Positions 2,242-33,100 of a DNA stretch of 64,000 nt are shown here, in pieces. Origin of the DNA: Nymphaea colorata (Eukaryota > Streptophyta > Magnoliopsida > Nymphaeales > Nymphaeaceae); assembly GCF_008831285.2 (NCBI RefSeq), contig NC_045139.1, forward strand, positions 11,754,704 through 11,818,703, read 5' to 3'. The notes below the pieces were generated by a model, which worked only from the letters and a program-made list of their open reading frames with translations, had not been told where the DNA came from and did not search any database. Position numbers and translations under genes: made by a program. Numbering within the stretch: the first letter of the stretch is position 1; every line of letters begins with the position of its first letter.

Positions 2242-3948
2242 GTTCATCTACACTCACAAGTGCTACGTCACTTGTCGCCACATCATGTATTAGTTGAACT
2301 CATGTCCACCTTCTTTTCTTCAACTTTCTTTGATAATTACAACAATCGCAAATATGTGCTGGTGGCTGGCCGAACCAACAATGAAAAAAAGCTTCTGCCT
2401 GAATACTTGATAGTCAAGAAGTTTAGAAGGCCATTGAGGGGGACATCGTCTACAACCATAATTTTTATAGGTACTACTTTTCTAGACCATAAACAGTGGC
2501 ATGAGTTAAAAGACATACAATATAACTACCAGGTCTCAAAACAACTTTAGACAGAAAAAAAGGTCAAAAAGAAATTGTAATTGAAAACTGGATACACAAA
2601 GGAGGAGGAGATCTCAGGGGAACCAAGTTGCCTGGTTAAAATAATACAACCAACAAGTTAGGGTGGAACTGAAAATTCGTCGAGATCTCAAGGGATCAAG
2701 AAGAATGATTCCTATATCAAATCCGAAATTTTTAAAATCACATGATCCATTAGATTGTTCCGATACTAAGCGTGGACGTTAATCAATGTATTGTTTCTAA
2801 GCAAGTGCATTTGGAATGTCTTTACGTGGCGAGGAAGAAATACCAAACCCACATTGGGAGCAGTACGACTGCAAGGTTTGCCGTCCAAGCAACTACTTGG
2901 TCTTGTCTGTTTGGTCACTGTTCGTGGATCCTTCTCAGGTTGGAACCAGTGTGGAGACATATATTTCTGGTGTGGGTATTTTTTGTTTATTTTGTATATG
3001 TGCTTCAAATGTCTGTTTTTTTTTTTTTTTTTTTTTTGTACACTTTTACTTTCTAGGGATCGTTTGGTAGAATGAGCACTCGAGCAACGTCTAATGAACT
3101 GTTCTTGCTGTCAAACGATGAAAATTTCAAAAATAATGCTTCTTAATAAAAAAATTTTTTGCTCTTCCACTGGTTTGAGTGATAATCCTTCAAATCCGCT
3201 GCAATTTAGATGGCCTCTCCAATAATAACTTCGGAGCTAAGGACCCTTAAACCTTCTCACAAGTTATAGCAGTCCGTAATGGCTCTTGTTTTGAACTGAT
3301 TCGGGTCTGGTATGAAGCAGACGACCAAATCCAATGTGAGTCTGATAATGATTCTTGAGTTTGCCAATTAGGCAGATAATGAAAGGCATGGAGCCGAAAC
3401 TCCACGTGCAGTTGTGCTGGTGGGGTCTGGATGGCTAAAGGAGGGAGACACATAAAGAAAGGGAAAGATGAAAGCAACCTGTTGGGCTTTTTTTTTTTTA
3501 GAAAAAAAAAGGTAAAAAAAAAGCTTTTCCACGCTTTAAAATGAGTCTTCAAAGTTTTGCATAAACCGGATGCCTGCAACTCCAAAAAAAGATAAGCTCC
3601 TTTTATTTTTTATAAGAGGCCAAATTTGATTTCAATCCAACCCCTAGCCTCATAATAGAAATTTGTAAATAATGTCCATGGAGACCAGTTTTAATGTTTG
3701 TTTTTTTTTTGGTAAATCGTAGACTTTCCCGACTATACCTCATCCCATTTAATTTAACGTTCCAACTTGACATAATATATAATATTTTAATTTTGTAGAT
3801 TTTCGATCGAACGTGCCTTCACCACCTAAATTCACGATGCATTTTTTTTGCAGAGTCGTTGCATTCGTGCCATCATTGTGTAATAATGATTTGTATAGAC
3901 AAAAGTTATCTCATTATAACATAGTTTATACAAGTCAAATAAACACAC

Positions 3949-22800: not shown

Positions 22801-23172
22801 TGTCAATATTTTATTTTTCTATCCATACATATGTTTAATTAAATTATAGAAAAGTAAGCTGACTCTTGTATTTTTTCACTTATTACTTAAGAAGGAAATA
22901 AAAACGGAAATGTGTCTTTTGATGGCACAAAAATGTATTAGCAAGTAGACTTCGTTTGCAAGTGAGCGGTAGAGAACCCCACTACTCGGATGAAAGGGTG
23001 AAGACCTTTCCCTTTTATTTTTTTGAAGTTTAAAGCTGCATCAAGATGAGATATTCCTTTTAATTTGAGAGCAGCGTCTGTTATGGTTTCTCGTTCAAAA
23101 AAATAGCACCCATAGTTGTGGAACAACTACAACCAAATTTTATTTTCACTGACCTGCCGACTCGACCAACTA
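19811..23172. other. Gene-free interval
   Basis: No supported gene. 21987-21998 and 22023-22034 form a perfect 12-bp inverted repeat (CCCCAAAACGAC / GTCGTTTTGGGG), probably the core of a small MITE ending near 22075. 22265-22440 contains GGCCCGGCTCG and GCCCGGCCCGAGCCC motifs like those of plant non-autonomous DNA elements. The rest is unremarkable AT-rich DNA. Confidence 0.55.
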
Positions 23173-23177
23173 TGCTA

Positions 23178-23580
23178 TGTTGGGATTTCCCCATCTGGAT
23201 AGTCCTGCGTCAATATGGGTTCATATCCATTTCGGACCTTAAGTATAAATACTCGTGTCTTGTGATGGTGTGAGACACATCAAGGTTTTTACCGTCTGGG
23301 TAATCGGTCCCCTTAGCCATACGTAAATTGCCTGTCCCCATCACTGGGCTGCTATGGCTGAGGAGAGAAACCCATTGCCGCTGCCACCGCCGCTACCTCC
23401 GCAGGGAAACGACTCTATGGGGACTGTAGCCGTTCTTCCCACAGCCACCGACATTCAGTCGGCGGTCGCCTCTACAGGTTCTACTTCCACCCTATTTGAA
23501 ACACATGAATCATGAATGCTTCTTTCGAATTTCTGCATTTTCGTTTGTTCGCTATCTAGATTTCTAGCAAAGGTCCAACA
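23178..23580 (+). repeat. 5' LTR (403 bp)
   Basis: Starts TGTTGGGATTTCCCC and ends GGTCCAACA. A TATA box, TATAAATA, lies at 23244-23251. The first ATG after the expected start site is at 23354 and opens the LTR small ORF. Confidence 0.96.
23354..23515 (+). CDS. LTR-encoded small ORF, probable first exon of gag
   Basis: 53 codons plus stop, starting MAEERNPLPLPPPLPPQ in a strong initiation context (GCTATGGC). It is the first ATG downstream of the LTR TATA box. The 3' LTR copy (29651-29800) is also open and differs by an in-frame 12-bp indel and only three amino-acid changes outside it. After codon 41 there is a candidate donor CAG|GTTCTA (exon end 23477, phase 1). A strong acceptor, TTTTGTCGTCTGCAG, ends at 25258 in the matching phase, so splicing would join this exon to the gag frame at the codons for VPGSIYFNG. 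I infer that this is the natural gag N-terminus; unspliced, it is just a short proline-rich peptide. Confidence 0.55.
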   Translation: MAEERNPLPLPPPLPPQGNDSMGTVAVLPTATDIQSAVASTGSTSTLFETHES

Positions 23581-23581
23581 A

Positions 23582-23597
23582 TGGGTTATGGGCCCAC
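23582..23597 (+). other. Primer-binding site matching the tRNA-iMet anticodon arm
   Basis: TGGGTTATGGGCCCAC starts one base after the LTR. It is the reverse complement of the conserved anticodon stem-loop of eukaryotic initiator tRNA-Met (GUGGGCCCAUAACCCA), not of its 3' end. Drosophila copia and yeast Ty5 use such a cleaved 5' half of tRNA-iMet as primer; this element appears to do the same. Confidence 0.8.
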
Positions 23598-24123
23598 TCC
23601 ACGATTCCTCTGCGCATTTCTCCCTTTTGCATTCTGTCTTCACGCAAAAGGAATAGGGCTTCCATTGCAGGCGTAGGCGTGCGAGAGGCGCGGCCGATGG
23701 TCGGTCGTTCCTCCTCGCCTCGTCGCAGCCACAGAGACAAAACAAGAGGGAAAGGGGGAAACGGGAAAGAGGGATGGGCATTCAGGCGTCGACCGCACCT
23801 TGCGTCGTCCGGCCGCCAACCTCAGGCGACGGGAGGCGGAGATGAAGATCGCTCGACGCCCTTCCCCTTCCGTTTTCTGTTTATTGCTTCAAGAAAAAGG
23901 GGCGGGGCGTCCTTGCCCACCAGCCATTAGGAGTGGCCGGCGGTGTCGCCGGGTGCCGGACGGCGCCAGGCGACCGCCGGAAATGTCCCACGGCCGGTGG
24001 GACGGCCGTCTGAAGCATCTTCGGCCGCCCCCATCGCCTCTGCCGTTAGGCTAGGGCAGCGACGGCGGGAGGCGGTTTCGTCTTCCCCGAAACCGCTCGC
24101 GCGGTCGAGCGGGTGGGTCGGAC

Positions 24124-24152
24124 CTGGGTCGGGTCATGCTGACCCGACCCAG
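24124..24152 (+). other. Perfect 13-bp hairpin in the Copia leader
   Basis: CTGGGTCGGGTCA (24124-24136), loop TGC, TGACCCGACCCAG (24140-24152). It is very GC-rich and would form a stable RNA stem. A second, imperfect GGGTCGA/TCGACCC pair lies at about 24224-24245. A packaging or dimerisation role is possible but unproven. Confidence 0.8.
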
Positions 24153-24270
24153 ATCCATAAAGATTTAAAAAAAAAATCATCGTTGCCGTTCGACTTCCGC
24201 CCGCCCGACTTCATTTTGGATCGGGTCGAGTCCTGTCGACCCGGATCCATACCGCCTGATTTGTTAAATA

Positions 24271-24641
24271 GAACCGATTCAGTTTTAATTGCACCGAGTC
24301 GGGGTCTCAGAGAACCGGTTCGACCAGTTCCGGACTGGTTCATCTGGTTTTCAGACCGGTTCTGAACTGGTTCTCAGATTACAAGACCGGTTCTTCCCAT
24401 TCTGAAACGATTCGGAGCATTTTTTTAAGCGATACAATTGTTTTTAACACGGTTTTAGCCATTCTTCAACCGGTTCTTTGCCTTTTGGGACCGGTTCATC
24501 TAGTTTTCCACCGGTTCGGTCCATTTAGGACTGATACGGGACCGGTTCTAAGCTAGAGGAAGCTGGTATATGTGTTTTTATGCCCATTTAAGGTGATTAA
24601 TGGATTGGTTCGACCATTTTAGATCGATACGGGACCGATTC
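24271..24641 (+). repeat. Array of ACCGGTTC motifs with ~10-bp phasing
   Basis: Exact ACCGGTTC starts at 24314, 24355, 24386, 24469, 24490, 24510 and 24541. One-mismatch copies lie at 24273, 24323, 24334, 24366, 24604 and 24634. Successive exact copies are 41, 31, 83, 21, 20 and 31 bp apart, all near multiples of 10.4. This may be a decayed minisatellite with a ~10-bp unit or a spaced protein-binding array. Confidence 0.85.
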
Positions 24642-25258
24642 ATTATGTTTTATGGAGCTTTAATGAATAATTTAGATACCATTAAGTTGATTATGCATAA
24701 ATGATTCGTGTGTTTCATTTTAAATGTGTTATTATGACATATTATATTCTTGTATCCTATTTTGTTTAGGATTATGCTAAAGTTAATTTTTATTGCATGA
24801 TCATAAAGTTGTATGATAACGCTAATGTAAGGAGCTTATGATTAGTTAAATCATGTTATACTTCACCAAAGTGACTACGCATGATTTAAAGGCACATTAG
24901 TGTTTCATGTTGTATTTATTCTCATTTGAAGTAACATAATTACCCAAAGGTAGTATGTTATGTTCAAGAGAATAAGTAGAGTAAAATAGAAAAATAGACC
25001 CTTACATAGTTCTGTCATTTTACACCCAAAGGTGTTATGCTTAACTATAGTTTGGATTTACATTTCTTAGTTTTACTAGATAAAGTTAAGACGGAATACA
25101 TGTGCGTATTAGGTATATTACCAAAGTAGTATCCTAATGACCCCTGATATTTGTCTTGGAAATAGTAGACATAAAGAGCCTTTTATTTGGTTTACTGTTC
25201 CATATGGTTTGTCTCATATAATACATGTCAACTTATGGATGTCTTTTGTCGTCTGCAG

Positions 25259-28200
25259 TGCCTGGATCTATTTATTTTAATGGTTCAAATTCTATCCATT
25301 TACTTGATGATTCGAATTATGCTGAATGGAAAGAAAATGTTGTATTTACATTGGGGTATATGGATCTGGACATGACTTTGAGGCAACCTGAGCCACCACC
25401 TCTCACACCAAAAAGTACACATAATGAAATAGTGTATTTTGACAAGTGGGAGCGTTCTAACCGACTAAGTTTGTTGCTTTTGCAATCAAGGGTCGCTAAG
25501 AACATACGTGGTGCTATCCCACCTTGTAGATCGGTGAGAGAGTTCTTGGATGTAGTTGAGGCTCAGTTTGTCAGCTCTCATAAAGCCAGAGCTAGTACCC
25601 TAATGTCAAAGTTAATATCTATGAAATATCAAGGAGGGGGTAACATTCACCAGCATATGTTAGAAATGAGGAACATTGCTTCTCAATTGAATGACATGAA
25701 GTTGACTATTTCTGAATCTTTCTTGGTATTCTTTACTTTGACCTCTTTACCAGCTGAATATACTCCTTTTAAGATCAGTTACAACACACATAATACTAAA
25801 TGGACATTCAATGAATTGATGTCTAAGTGTGTTGAAGAGGAGGAAAGAATGAAAGGTGAGAAGTTGCAAAGTGCACATATGGTTTCTCACTCTGAGGCTG
25901 GTAAAGTTGGAATAAAGAAAAGTTTAATGAAAAGGAGTGCCAAGAAGAAGTCATCAAGTAAACCTGCTTCTCAAACTGCGCAGACTAACTTAGCTCCTAT
26001 AAAGTGTTTCTTTTGCAAGAAAAAGAGGCATAAGAAGTCAGACTGCATCAAGTATAAGAATTGGTTAGAGAAGAAAGGTAACATGTCATTTGTTTCCCTT
26101 GAAAGTAATATGTTACATGTTCCTATTAATAGCTGGTGGATTGACTCTGGTGCTACTGTGCATATTGCCAATAATTTACAGGACTTTCTGAGCAAAAGGG
26201 AACCAACACTACATGAGAGGAGCATTTTCTCAGGAAACAAAATGCGCTCACATGTGAAAGCTGTAGGAGAATGCCAGATTAGGCTTGATACTGGCTTTGT
26301 TTTGGATCTTCATGATGTTTTCTTTGTTCCATCATATAGTAGAAACTTAATTTCTGTATCAAGACTGGACAAATTTGATTTCTGTTTAAAGTTTAAAAAT
26401 TCAAAAATGTTGATTTATAAAGATCTTGTTGAAATTGGTTCTGCTATTTTGTGTGATGGTTTATACAAGTTGAATGTGAAGATCCAATCTCCTGAATCGT
26501 TGGTTTCTAGTCATAATACAATTGACAATAAGCGTAGTACCATAAAGGATGATTCATACATACTATGGCACCGCCGTTTGGGTCATATCTCTGAAAAGAG
26601 AATAAGGAGACTCTTAAATGAAGGAATCTTACCATCTCTTGATTTTACAGATAACGACATATGTGTTGATTGCATAAAGGCAAAGCAAACTAACATATAT
26701 AAAGAAGGTGCCGAGCGATGTACTGAAAGATTAGGAATTGTTCACACAGATGTTTGTGGACCTTTTTCTCCTTGTTACACAGGCGAAAAGTATTTTGTCA
26801 CCTTTATAGATGACTATTCTCGAAATTTGTATATCTACTTAATCTTTGAAAAATCCGATGTGTGTCAAGTTTTCAAAGACTATAAGAAAGAAGTAGAAAA
26901 ACAAACCGGTGAGGTTATCAAGATAGTCAGATCAGATAGAGGTGGTGAATATTATGGTAGGTTCACTAAGATGGGACAAAGGTAGAGACCATTAGCGTGA
27001 TTTCTAAAGGAAGAAGGCATTGTGCCTCAATACACTATGTCAGGCAGCACCTACCAAAATGGTGTTGCTGAAAGAAGAAATCGTACTCTTAAAGAAATGG
27101 TTCGAGCTATGTTAAATTACTCTACTCTCCCTCTAACCTTGTGGGGTGAAGCTCTCAGGACAGCAGTGCATATACAGAATAGAGTTCCTACTAAGGCTGT
27201 TCCCACAACTCCTTACGAGTTATGGACAGGTAGGAAACATTCTCTTTCTTATATGCACATATGGGGATGTCCTGCTGAAGCTAAATTGTATAACCCCTAC
27301 ATAAAAGCCTTTGATCCTAGAACAACCAGTGGTTTTTTTATTGGTTATCCAGAAAGATCGAAAGACTATAGGTTTTATTGTTCATCTCATACATCACATA
27401 TTGTGGAAACAGATAAGGCTAAGTTCCTGGAAGATGGCTCATTTGGGTTAGATGCATTACAAAACCTCAATTTTGATAAAATACAGGATACTGAAAGTAG
27501 ACCTGATAAAGAGAATATAAATGTGTATGATTATGTTGTCTCTCAGGATGACATGAATGCAAATCATACAGGTAATGCATCAGATCCAGATGAATTAAGT
27601 GTAGATCATACTGATGAACACGAACAGGATATAGACATACAAATTGAAAATGATCAATTACCTGTTTGTAGATCTACAAGGGCCAGGAGATCTGCCATAT
27701 CATCAGACTATGTGGTATACCTACAAGAGCCTAGTGATTTCATAGATGTTGATGATGATCCTTTCACATTCATTGAAGCCGTTGAAAGCAAACAATATAG
27801 GCACTGGATTAATGCCATGAAAGAAGAGCTTGACTCTATGGCTAAAAACCAGACGTGGAGCCTTGTGTCGTTGCCTGAAGGAGTAAAACCCGTATGATGT
27901 AAATGAGTTTATAAGACCAAGAGGGACTCTAAAGGCAACATAGAGAGATACAAAGCAAGATTGGTTGCTAAAAGATTTACACAAATGGAGGGCATTGACT
28001 ATAATAAGACATATTCACCTGTCTCTGCTAAACAGTCAATGAGGATTGTCCTTGCACTTGTACCTCATTTTGACTTATAGCTACATCAAATGGATGTGAA
28101 AACGGCTTTCTTGAATTGTGATTTGGATGAAGAGGTATATATGGATCAACCTCAAGGGTTTTCTGAGAGTGGTAAAGATCATTTGGTTTGCAAGCTTAAT

Positions 28201-29269
28201 AAAGCGATTTATGGACTTAAACAGGCCTCACGTCAATGGTACATTAAGTTTTCCGAAGTTATTACGACTTTTGGGTTTACAGAAAATATCATTGATCGTG
28301 TGTGTATCTTAAGACATGTGGGAGTAAGTTCATAATTTTGACTTTATATGTGGATGACATTTTACTTGCTTTAAATGATCTTCAATTGCTAACAGAAACC
28401 AAACATTTTCTCGCATCTCATTTTGAGATGAAGGACATGGGTGAGGCTTCATTTGTTCTTGGCATTGAGATTCGTCGAGACAGATCTAAATGTGTTTTAA
28501 GTCTCTCCCAATCAGCATACATCAATAAAGTTCTTAAAAAATATGGGATGGAGAATTGTTCTCCTATTTCGGCACCCATAGCTAAAGGGGATAAATTGAG
28601 CCTAAATTATTGTCCAAAGGACGAATTTGAAAAGGCACAAATGATCAACATTCCATATGCATCTGCGGTTGGCAGCTTGCAGTATGCGCAGATTTGTACT
28701 AAGCCTGACATTTCCTTTGCTGTTGGCATGCTTGGTTTGGAAGGCCGTAAAGAGAGTCATCATGCGATACTTGCAAGGGACAAAAGATTACATGTTGACA
28801 TATCGCAAGGTGGACCATTTAGAAGTGATTGACTATTCTGATGCCGATCTTGGAGGATGTACCGATAGTAGAAAGTCTACTACTGGTTTTGTTTTCCTTC
28901 TATAAGAAGGTGCCATCTCATGGGGGAGCAAAAAGCAGACTGTGACTGCTGTTCACACCATGGAAGCAGAATTCATTGCATTATATGAGACTACATCACA
29001 GACAATTTGGATAAAGAACTTCATTTCACAGCTCAAGATAGTGGAATCCATTGATAGACCTTAAGGTTCACTGTGATAATGAAGCTGCAGTGTCTTTTTC
29101 CAACAACAACAAAAGTACTACTTCTTGTAAGCATATGAAACTTAAGTATTTTGTTGTTAAGGAAAGGACAAAGAATCAACTAGTGTGTATTCAACACATT
29201 GGAACTACAAATATGGTTGCAGATCCTCTTACTAAAGTGCTATGTTCTTTGAACATGTTAAGAGGATGA
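25259..29269 (+). pseudogene. Copia gag-pol with stops and frameshifts
   Basis: The first open segment runs to 26985. It has gag, a zinc knuckle CFFCKKKRHKKSDC (CX2CX4HX4C), protease WWIDSGATVHIA, GAG-pre-integrase LWHRRLGHIS...CVDC and integrase HTDVCGPF...DDYSR...RSDRGGEY. Stops at 26983 (TAG) and about 26998 (TGA) break integrase. 27022-27897 resumes with [12 protein letters not shown] and the post-integrase region. More stops follow near 27895, 27904 and 28078. Reverse transcriptase covers 28090-28832 (MDVKTAFLN; LYVDDILLA) with a frameshift near 28300. RNase H covers 28657-29269 with a small deletion after VGMLG and a stop near 28905. It cannot make a full polyprotein. Confidence 0.9.
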
Positions 29270-29474
29270 GTTTGACACACTATTATGCAAACATTTATGA
29301 ATGTGATCACATACAGTTTGTTGATTCTCATTAAGTTTGTTGTCTATTTATTTTGTATTCTCATTTGTTTGTTGAGAAGTTTTGTAAGACAACAAGGTGG
29401 GACCTTGGAATGAATTTTAAGGCTAATCCATTCATTTTGTTTACCCTTGATATCGACTTGGACTAGTGGGAGAT

Positions 29475-29865
29475 TGTTGGGATTTCTCCATCTGGATAGT
29501 CCTACGTCGATACGGGTCTATATCTGTTTCGGACCCTAAGTATAAATACTCGTGTCTTGTGATGGTGTGAGACACGTCAAGGTTTTTACCGTTTGGGTAA
29601 TCGGTCCCCTTAGCCATACGTGAATTGCCTGTCCCCATCACTGGGTTGCTATGGCTGAGGAGAGAAACCCATTGCCGCTGCCGCCGCCGCTACCTCCGCA
29701 GGAGAACGACTCTATGGGGACTGTAGCCGTTCTTCCCACAGTGTCGGCGGTCGCCTCTACAGGTTCTATTTCCGCCCTATTTGAAACACATGAATCATGA
29801 ATGCTTCTTTCGAATTTCTGCATTTTCATTTGTGCGCTATCTAGATTTCTAGCAAAGCTCCAACA
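29475..29865 (+). repeat. 3' LTR (391 bp) just upstream of FIGL1
   Basis: Starts TGTTGGGATTTCTCC after the polypurine tract and ends GCTCCAACA, followed by TSD TGCTA (29866-29870). TATAAATA is kept at 29541-29548, and the small ORF at 29651-29800 is open. Transcription from this LTR would read toward FIGL1. Confidence 0.96.
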
Positions 29866-30132
29866 TGCTACACCTGTCAGGATAACACCGGTCAGGATAA
29901 GTAGAAATAAGTAGAAACTGTTTCATAGGCATTGAACATCGATGAGCACACAGGTGCATGTTCTGTCGGATCAGATCCAGTGTGGAAACTGGTAATTCAT
30001 CTATAACCCGGTTCTGACCGTTCCGAGACGTATATGAACCCGTTTCGAGTTTTTAAATATTCATTTTTTTTTTCGCGCGGGAGTTTCACCGTTAAAGGGC
30101 AAGGCGCTTACCCGCACTTTTCTGAAGAGGCA

Positions 30133-33100
30133 ATGGCGTCCGAGAGTTCCGCGGAGCCCGCCACGAAGGCGGAGGTCTGTTGGCGGCAGGACGTCGACGA
30201 GAAACTCCACCGCCTTCATTCTCTTCAGTTCGGAGCAGATCTCGCCGCCGATCGAGGTGATCACGTCACTGCGCGGATCTTCGCTCTACGTCTTCTTGGT
30301 TTCTTGGATTCCCACTCGAAAACCCCAACAGATGACGCGTTAATCCATCCCATTCGAAGGGAGGTTCTCTCCAGGATCAACTCCTCCCGCCGATCACTTG
30401 CTCCTCAATCTGATCGGTATGATGAACTTCCGTACTTACTTCTGTAATTTGCGGCGTTTTCTTTCGTGATCTGCCAGGTTTTCTAGATGAGGATCGCTCT
30501 TGATGAATGTGTGTGATTGATTTCGGCTGCTGCATGTATCGCTCCGTGCTTCAATCGATGTCTCTGTTGGATTTATGGAGTTCTGGGATTCGTTACATAA
30601 TGTGTTCGTCAATATATGCGAAGCTACAGTTTAGGGTTCTATACCTCGGTCATCCTGTTGCAATTTAAAAATCATTTGTGTTCGCGCGCGTGCGCTCATG
30701 TCTGCGTAGTCGTCCGTGCATGCATACACCTGAAAGTATGAGATCATGAGTAGCAATGTGGGTCGATTAATATGATTGAATGACTTATTATTTCAAAAGT
30801 AGCCTTCTAAAAAGGTTAATTGTAGTTTTAACACACACTATCTCTCTGTCTCACGCACACATATAAACATGGACAGTTGAATTAGGCCGTCGGATCCATT
30901 AATGAAGACACTCTCAGATGCTCCATCCTTCTGGACGGGAGTTTGTCCTCAAACCAAAAATTTCTTGAAGTTCCTGCATGCAGCAAATATTTGCTTTAGA
31001 AGTTGAAATTTTTTGGGACGCTTAATCCTTCAGCTGTTTTTGGTTCTATATCTTTTTGAGAATAGCAGACTTGCTGCTTACTGGCAATTGATTTACTCCT
31101 TTCCCCTATCTTTTATTTACAGTTTCTAAAGTGCATATTATTGTGATGTTTGTAGTCAAGCATTTGAGCAGGCAAGGAGGAAACAAGGTTCTATTTTTTC
31201 CAAGAAATGTGAAGTGGACAAGGAGAAGATCATGAAATCAAAGTATTTTGAACTTTATTATCTTCGATCTGGTAACAGTGTTTGTAGTGCACAGGTAGGA
31301 ACTATCCTTTTGGACACGTTTGTGTTCAAATGTTACATTATCATATTCAGAATCTTACTTGTTCAGATGCATTTTAGGTATCCAAGTCACTGCGGGAGCC
31401 AAGTTATGGTGGCCTTTATTATTCAAGTACTCTAAAGGAGAAACCATCATTTCAGACTGGCCATCAAGATAAGCAAAGCAATGAAAAGGTTGTGAAGGCG
31501 ACAAAGGTTCTTGCACAAGCAAAATTGACATCTCTATATTGCAACAAAACCTTTAAGCCAAGCAGCACTTCTTATAGGACACTTGTGAAGTCTGATTGCA
31601 ATAGTCCAAGTGAGCCCACATATTTGGAGAAGACAAATTCAAATGATTTAGATTCTCTAAAGGCCAATGGGCCATCTTCACCTTTGCAAGATGGTGATCT
31701 AGACAGGTTGAATGGAAAAGTGTTGGGGACAAAACGACAGCACACAGAAGTCATAAAACCTATTCCTGAAAATACAAGGTCTCCACCAGATATTAGCAGT
31801 ACGAACCCTGATTGTGGTAATGGTGGATTTGTCACCGCAAAGATGAAGCTGGTACTAGCCGTTTCTAATTCTAGATGTTACTACTTTTTCTAGCATGGTT
31901 TGCTTACTTTCTCATTGAATATTATCTTCCTCTTCTTTTTCTATTACATATAGTAAACAGCACTGGCATAAATGCTACTTAACAGCTACTAGTACTACTA
32001 GAAACAAGTATAAACTTTTGACTTTTACCCATGGCAATAATGGTGCCATATGGGAAAATATTGTTAAATCATTTGTTGACATACTTTTCTGATTGTGATG
32101 TAATTGGTAGTTGTTTCTAAATCGTGTCATTATAGGTAACTGTTGTTCATCACCTGACATAGGACAACCATGGTATGAAGCCCATGTGAGCAATTCAAGC
32201 TTCTATATGTATACTGGTGGCAAGGAATACTTCAGGTGTTTTACCAGTCACAGGTCGTCCAATGAGTGGTTAATGGTTTCTTGTTGTCTGGGATTTGGGG
32301 GAAGGCAGGGGTTTTTCCTTTGACCTAGTTGGAAAGAAAAGGAAAAGCTTATAAGCAACCTTTCAATATCCTTCAGCTTATCTGCTCATGCTGATTCTGT
32401 GGTACATAAATGTGATTGAGCTGAGGGTCGATGCTTTGTGTCCTAAACTAGATTGAGTACCCTTACTCTATGTACAATCTAGGAAAGGGGTCTATAGTTT
32501 ATTCCACCGTGGTTTTATATTGTCTATTTCTTGGTACTTACCAATAACGATTTCAACCTTGTAGGTGATGGACTCAAAGCAAAAGGGTTCATTGACATGT
32601 TCACCAGGTGTTTCTTCTTCTTCACCATCAAATTTTGCAAATGAAAATCATTACATGACAAAAAATGATGTCCGGCCATATGGTGGAAGATCTGCCATGA
32701 TACCACGGCGTGGTGTGCGTGGCAATTTTATTCCTCCTGTAAGATCTAATGGGACCACAGCAAGTGGTGTGTCTGGTTCACGGGTTCCTTGTAAAAATGA
32801 TGATACGCTTGATGATTCAACGAGGAGATGGTTTGTACCTTGTCATATGATTCTGGTATTGTGGATTATTTTGTGATTGTGAATAGTATCTTTTGATTAT
32901 TTTTTCGCAGGATTGCAGCATAAGCATGTGGCATGTGCATGCCCATGTGTGTCTGTTTTTATCTAGACATATGCATGGTTACAATAGGGGGCATCACAAC
33001 TTTTAAGTTTAAATCAATCATGGTGCAACTAATATATATGCAATTAAAATTAACAATATACATATGTTCATAAAGTATTCTCAAGTTGCAAGTTTTAGTT

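Follow-up and report, generated by a model that had tools for sequence, protein, structure and literature searches.

The window analysed here, a stretch of 64,000 nucleotides from Nymphaea colorata (NCBI RefSeq assembly GCF_008831285.2, contig NC_045139.1, positions 11,754,704 to 11,818,703 of the forward strand), carries a Copia-type element at 23178–29865, with long terminal repeats (LTRs) of 403 and 391 bases. An original prediction, made from the letters of the window, held that the LTR of this element encodes the N-terminus of gag and that an intron of ~1.78 kb containing the primer-binding site is removed from the gag mRNA. Sister copies and a related family support this arrangement, and a gag start encoded in the LTR and joined to gag by splicing is, to judge from the DNA sequence, quite probably the correct reading. 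The parts of the element are listed below; a slash within a sequence or a coordinate pair marks a proposed splice boundary.

23173..23177, + strand: target-site duplication TGCTA, 5' copy (sequence), matching 29866–29870
23178..23580, + strand: 5' LTR, TGTTGG...CCAACA
23244..23251, + strand: TATA box, TATAAATA (sequence)
23354..23477, + strand: proposed gag exon 1 within the LTR, of 41 codons and one further base (G)
23478..25258, + strand: proposed phase-1 intron of 1,781 bases, comprising the LTR end, primer-binding site, and leader
23582..23597, + strand: primer-binding site
25225..25258, + strand: rival start ATG and the stretch just 5' of the acceptor
25244..25258, + strand: acceptor, TTTTGTCGTCTGCAG
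25259..26985, + strand: gag exon 2, which extends into the protease region and the beginning of integrase, its frame closed by a stop; domains Retrotran_gag_2, Pol_BBD, gag_pre-integrs, and rve (Pfam)
27022..29269, + strand: remaining pol in broken frames, with SH3_retrovirus, two RVT_2 pieces, and two 3' pieces without a Pfam match
29460..29474, + strand: putative polypurine tract, purine-rich, before the 3' LTR (sequence)
29475..29865, + strand: 3' LTR
29651..29800, + strand: 3' LTR copy of the reading frame, 49 codons, carrying a 12-bp deletion absent from the 5' LTR
29866..29870, + strand: target-site duplication TGCTA, 3' copy (sequence)

The order of domains recognised with Pfam (gag, protease region, integrase, and reverse transcriptase, in frames that are now broken) is that of Ty1/copia elements, as are the TG...CA LTRs and the 5-bp target duplication. 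In the proposed mechanism, transcription would start in the 5' LTR, which would also hold the start codon of gag and a splice donor in phase 1. Splicing from 23477/23478 to 25258/25259 would remove the 3' end of the LTR, the primer-binding site, and the leader, and would fuse a 41-codon LTR-encoded N-terminus to gag, with a valine codon (G/TG) at the junction. Unspliced RNA cannot give this Gag from the LTR ATG, because the frame of that ATG stops at 23513–23515, within the LTR. Such RNA would keep the primer-binding site and may serve mainly as the template for reverse transcription, while spliced RNA, without the site, would be messenger only. The intronic position of the primer-binding site thus suggests that translated and packaged RNA are separated; the splicing, the LTR-started protein, and the separate fates of the two RNAs are all predicted features of the model.

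The LTR reading frame in sister copies

The open reading frame (ORF) described in the prediction is present in both LTRs, with 53 codons at 23354–23515 and 49 codons at 29651–29800, and the LTRs differ at 22 of 391 aligned bases (5.6%), in line with the divergence of ~5% first estimated. The donor CAG/GT is likewise found after codon 41, in phase 1, at 23477/23478. The start codon had been described as the first ATG after the TATA box, which is true only for a transcription start ~30 nt beyond the TATA box, another ATG being located at 23265, probably upstream of the transcription start site. A 12-bp indel, the sole indel between the LTRs inside the ORF, had been taken as a sign of selection on the frame. 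The indel exists, but the argument from it fails: the deletion is confined to the 3' LTR, and the same four codons are lost in one sister LTR (L073) and kept in its partner (L093). In both elements the deletion therefore followed insertion and is uninformative on selection, and it was rejected as evidence for coding.

Sister copies were sought in the host genome (408 Mb). From a DNA search with the LTR ORF, in which the best 40 of 182 candidates were scored, 39 sister LTR places were obtained, giving 41 LTRs with the two of the window; being chosen by ORF similarity, these could favour intact ORFs. A further 40 stretches picked by gag similarity alone yielded 34 usable LTRs, five stretches being dropped for want of an LTR match and one (L090) for too short a match. 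Removal of the duplicates L022, L042, and L044 (the same LTRs as L083, L094, and L077, respectively) left a final set of 72 LTRs, from which 26 LTR pairs were tested; the pair L063/L083 was left out, L063 having a large deletion. The window family comprises at least ~85 gag matches, as read from the identity column for the best 150 of 1,779 candidates scored.

The length of exon 1 from the ATG to CAG/GT is 1 modulo 3 in 69 of the 72 LTRs, the donor GT is kept in 71, and the ATG in 70. Among the gag-picked LTRs, which are free of the ORF-selection bias, 31 of 34 are in frame, counting the deleted L063 as in frame. The final 12 of the 53 ORF codons show no conservation, sister copies ending in many ways, and past the donor frame-breaking indels are common among sister LTRs; conservation extends only up to the donor. 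Frameshifts at the neutral rate, an outcome named in advance as contrary to the prediction, are not what the sister copies display. Exon 1 is broken by a stop, a shift, or a lost ATG in 13 of the 72 LTRs, four of which have no partner in the set, and none of the other nine breaks predates insertion, because the partner LTR is intact in 9/9. One such change, CAG to TAG at a single exon-1 codon (23402–23404), recurs in several LTRs, all of whose partners in the set are intact, and its recurrence would fit C-to-T decay after insertion.

Indels that preserve the triplet frame were rejected as sole proof of coding, since slippage in the (CCG)n proline tract of exon 1 yields triplets after insertion as well: of the 23 indels that arose in exon 1 at that stage, 20 have a length divisible by 3. 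Pre-insertion triplet indels make up 4/4 in exon 1, 0/5 before the ATG, and 1/13 after the donor, and the comparison of exon 1 with the rest (4/4 versus 1/18, p = 0.0007) is confounded by the same tract.

Both LTRs of one element are identical when it is inserted. A change shared by the two is therefore older than the insertion and has come through selection in the replicating lineage, and a difference between paired LTRs arose after insertion. Across the 26 pairs, the ratio of pre- to post-insertion changes is 34:107 in exon 1 without the proline tract and 98:95 after the donor (Fisher p = 9e-7); with the tract included, exon 1 gives 56:139 against the same 98:95 (p = 1e-5). Pair counts take variants shared by a subfamily more than once, and counting each distinct pre-insertion variant once changes the figures to 17:107 for exon 1 without the tract and 36:95 after the donor (p = 0.008). 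The boundary is most apparent at the donor itself, the 20 bases before it holding 1 pre-insertion and 18 post-insertion changes and the 20 bases after it 31 and 22.

The acceptor, ATG 25225, and a related family

The acceptor TTTTGTCGTCTGCAG/TG lies at 25258/25259 in the phase complementary to that of the donor, as the prediction had stated, and 59 of 63 copies retain its AG. A conserved gag ATG just past 25258, usable on unspliced RNA, had been named as the other outcome contrary to the prediction; no in-frame ATG occurs in 25261–25319 in any of 23 copies.

Gag could alternatively be started at ATG 25225, upstream of the acceptor, on unspliced or differently processed RNA, leaving the LTR ORF incidental. 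Of 63 copies, 62 retain this ATG, 61 preserve a multiple of 3 between it and the acceptor, and 44, the window copy among them, have an open frame from it into gag. In the remaining 19, however, the fifth codon is an in-frame stop (18 TGA and one TAA); one of these copies also lacks the ATG and two carry an indel. All four bases occur at the first position of that fifth codon, the ATG has T at −3, and the counterpart of this stretch in the related family described below differs by non-triplet lengths. Several stop-bearing members keep exon 1 open together with the donor (L018, L046, L049, and L064, the element of L148); the element of L151 has one broken LTR (L067) and one open LTR (L087), and in the L155 element the 5' LTR (L071), the only one read, is broken. 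That many copies share the same stop suggests a change older than their insertion. A start at ATG 25225 is excluded for a large subfamily, not for every copy. On unspliced RNA, 36 ATGs, including that of the LTR, lie between the likely start site and 25225, and the long leader matches among copies at ~76–93% identity with large indels, versus ~88–96% for gag. As the source of Gag, ATG 25225 is improbable.

Support for the spliced LTR start also comes from a related family, represented by gag matches at 42–46% identity (~44%; L053–L055), the leaders of which align in part with that of the window element. In the LTRs of these copies, ATGGATTCAG/GTACGC follows the TATA box and supplies an ATG, a mini-exon of ten bases, and a donor in phase 1, and TTTGTACAG/TG stands before their gag in the same phase. 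By manual count, 15 residues separate the junction from the first shared gag motif in this family and 14 in the window family. Thirteen pairs (26 LTRs) were obtained from the best 40 of 562 candidates, and because the query LTR piece holds the mini-exon, this set carries a bias toward intact sites; L053–L055 and L180–L187 were chosen by gag. The ATG and the GT are present in 29 of 29 related-family LTRs, with G before the GT in 28. Further stretches retain the acceptor AG in 14 of 14 and have an ATG within exon 2 in 12 of 14. The pyrimidine tract of the related family is not coding, because its length differs by non-triplets. In older related subfamilies, ATGGATTCAG/GT was found in six of the eight stretches read, and LTR similarity in seven of the eight. 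Three gag relatives at 57–66% identity were also read (L050–L052); they are decayed, with unclear LTRs and acceptors, and enter no count.

Two peculiarities of individual related-family copies were observed. In L100–L101, L104–L105, L112–L113, and L118–L121, an extra ATG lies near the expected transcription start in both paired LTRs and would, if transcribed, open a three-codon ORF. L055 has two copies of a 103-base gag piece around the start of gag (3147–3249 and 3390–3492, 98% identical).

The primer-binding site is located inside the proposed intron in both families. In the window element, its 16 bases (23582–23597) are complementary at 16/16 positions to nucleotides 26–41, in the anticodon arm, of L136, a host tRNA-Met(CAT) gene, and of the 22 window-family copies in which a site can be recognised, 16 have the exact 16-mer. 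The site of the related family is complementary to the 3' end, CCA included, of the same tRNA-Met. These sequences point to a switch of priming site between related families, from one part of the same tRNA-Met to another.

Weight of the evidence and its consequences

The exon-2 ATG of the related family raises the alternative that the intron is real while exon 1 is an untranslated leader or a regulatory upstream ORF (uORF), Gag being started in exon 2, at a non-AUG codon in the window family and at the ATG in the related one. Besides the presence of that ATG in most related acceptor stretches, this account draws on the moderate strength of the evidence from nonsynonymous and synonymous changes in exon 1 (N:S), which stand at 18:16 before insertion and 80:26 after it (p = 0.018, a moderate test) and, when distinct pre-insertion variants are used, at 10:7 (p = 0.24, not significant). 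It is opposed by the beginning of exon 2, which lacks an in-frame ATG in every window-family copy compared, and by the preservation in exon 1 of the frame, the start codon, and phase 1. Exon 1 is, moreover, not maintained as a free-standing uORF, because the ORF past the donor is not kept. This account has only a small chance of being correct.

A further possibility is that the LTR segment is kept as a DNA or RNA element, such as a promoter, R region, or packaging signal, with the ORF, donor, and phase arising by chance. U3 (pre:post 14:104) is more constrained than exon 1, and the interval from the TATA box to the ATG (43:91) is constrained about like it, so that constraint by itself is no proof of coding. 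The pair test in the related family (13 pairs) also revealed few pre-insertion changes anywhere in the LTR stretch and no boundary at the donor. Set against these observations are the jump of pre-insertion changes at the donor in the window family, the nonsynonymous share of pre-insertion changes (18/34, below the expected 70%, p = 0.03), and the fact that the related family, whose exon 1 is different in sequence, again combines an ATG with a phase-1 donor and an acceptor of the same phase. This possibility is very unlikely.

The retention of ATG 25225, the failure of the 12-bp indel as an argument, the limited N:S signal, and the constraint outside exon 1 all weigh against an LTR-encoded, spliced gag start, as do several other points. 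The change of constraint at the donor is sharp, yet neither side of it is even: successive 20-base bins contain 6, 17, 19, 5, 8, and 1 pre-insertion changes in exon 1 and 31, 6, 27, 4, and 30 after the donor. Pairing was by position, and in 10 of the 26 pairs the 5' LTR is closer to another LTR than to its partner. Beyond the GT, the donor CAG/GTTCTA is weak relative to the consensus, and the older related subfamilies keep the acceptor AG in only six of eight stretches. Exact gapped patterns found no intron-less genomic copies (0 and 0), although these patterns allow no mismatch and old processed copies could escape them; control patterns over the unspliced donor gave 32 and 121 matches; the GT is missing from one of the 32 and, among the 121, from three of the 100 that were listed. 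The argument as a whole is made from genomic sequence, and the splicing is itself deduced from it.

The occurrence of this layout in at least two families with gag at ~44% identity raises a broader proposal, toward which we lean slightly. The layout may be an ancestral one among Copia elements, with splicing acting as an obligatory switch: unspliced RNA would yield no Gag, and spliced Gag(-Pol) RNA would be uncopiable, having lost the primer-binding site and part of the LTR with its first intron. If the LTR does encode the gag start, annotation that seeks gag only past the LTR misses the true N-terminus. Each new LTR would also arrive with promoter, start codon, and splice donor, in which case host exons may be captured by an insertion as in-frame fusions, and LTRs scattered through the genome may be ready to make chimeric host proteins.

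In the surroundings of the element, an ORF at 30133–30444 encodes a FIGL1 N-terminal domain (Pfam PF24347, E = 4.2e-34). It starts ~260 bases 3' of the 3' LTR in the same orientation, and the 3' LTR could influence this adjoining FIGL1-domain host gene. An Rfam scan of 22900–30200 gave nothing at the gathering score, a tRNA gene search of the window gave none, and relatives sought in IMG/VR and GTDB yielded none that was confirmed.

Comparison with known systems

In yeast Ty1, the gag start codon is located inside the 5' LTR, and no splicing is known to take place between the start codon and gag. A gag start in the 5' LTR, as a Ty1-type feature, fits the sequence conservation in the window family, where its translation is predicted. 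The window element differs from Ty1 in lacking an unspliced frame continuous from LTR to gag, its LTR frame ending at the stop at 23513–23515. The 5' untranslated region of Ty1 is described as made of R and U5 (PMC4974528).

Plant LTR elements are described as generally without introns, with Ogre and EVADE as exceptions (2025 review, PMC12786077). Copia introns at the gag/pol border are already known, and the LTR-encoded, spliced gag start would seem to be the new part: a literature search, made partly with narrow phrases in open papers and mostly in titles and abstracts, found no report of such a start in plant elements, which is weak evidence of absence. In its primer-binding site, the window element resembles groups with a site complementary to half of tRNA-Met; by Neumann et al. 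(2019, PMC6317226), half-tRNA-Met sites are attributed to Osser, Bryco, and part of Gymco-II, and to no other Copia group.

Ogre resembles the window element as a partially spliced plant LTR element in which splicing creates a translatable frame (PMC6317226, PMC12786077), but it belongs to Ty3/gypsy, a superfamily other than that of the Copia element described here. The Arabidopsis Ty1/Copia element EVADE offers a closer functional parallel, in that intron retention parts a poorly translated full-length RNA from the translated, spliced shGAG RNA (PMC8892269, PMC12786077). Its intron, however, removes the protease region, 3' of gag (PMC12786077), whereas that of the window element would lie in the leader and the LTR.

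BARE1, a Copia element of barley, likewise has a spliced RNA class that favours Gag (PMC3735527). The BARE1 intron is located just past the end of gag, where its removal truncates the product to Gag, and BARE1 gag starts after the LTR; in the window element, the proposed intron is upstream of gag and spans the primer-binding site, with the start codon on the LTR side. BARE1 further differs in drawing its RNA pools from two TATA boxes (PMC3735527). How one RNA can be used for both translation and reverse transcription is called a major question in the same paper, and the arrangement proposed for the window family would, if true, provide a direct and testable answer, in which each RNA does one job, translation or reverse transcription.

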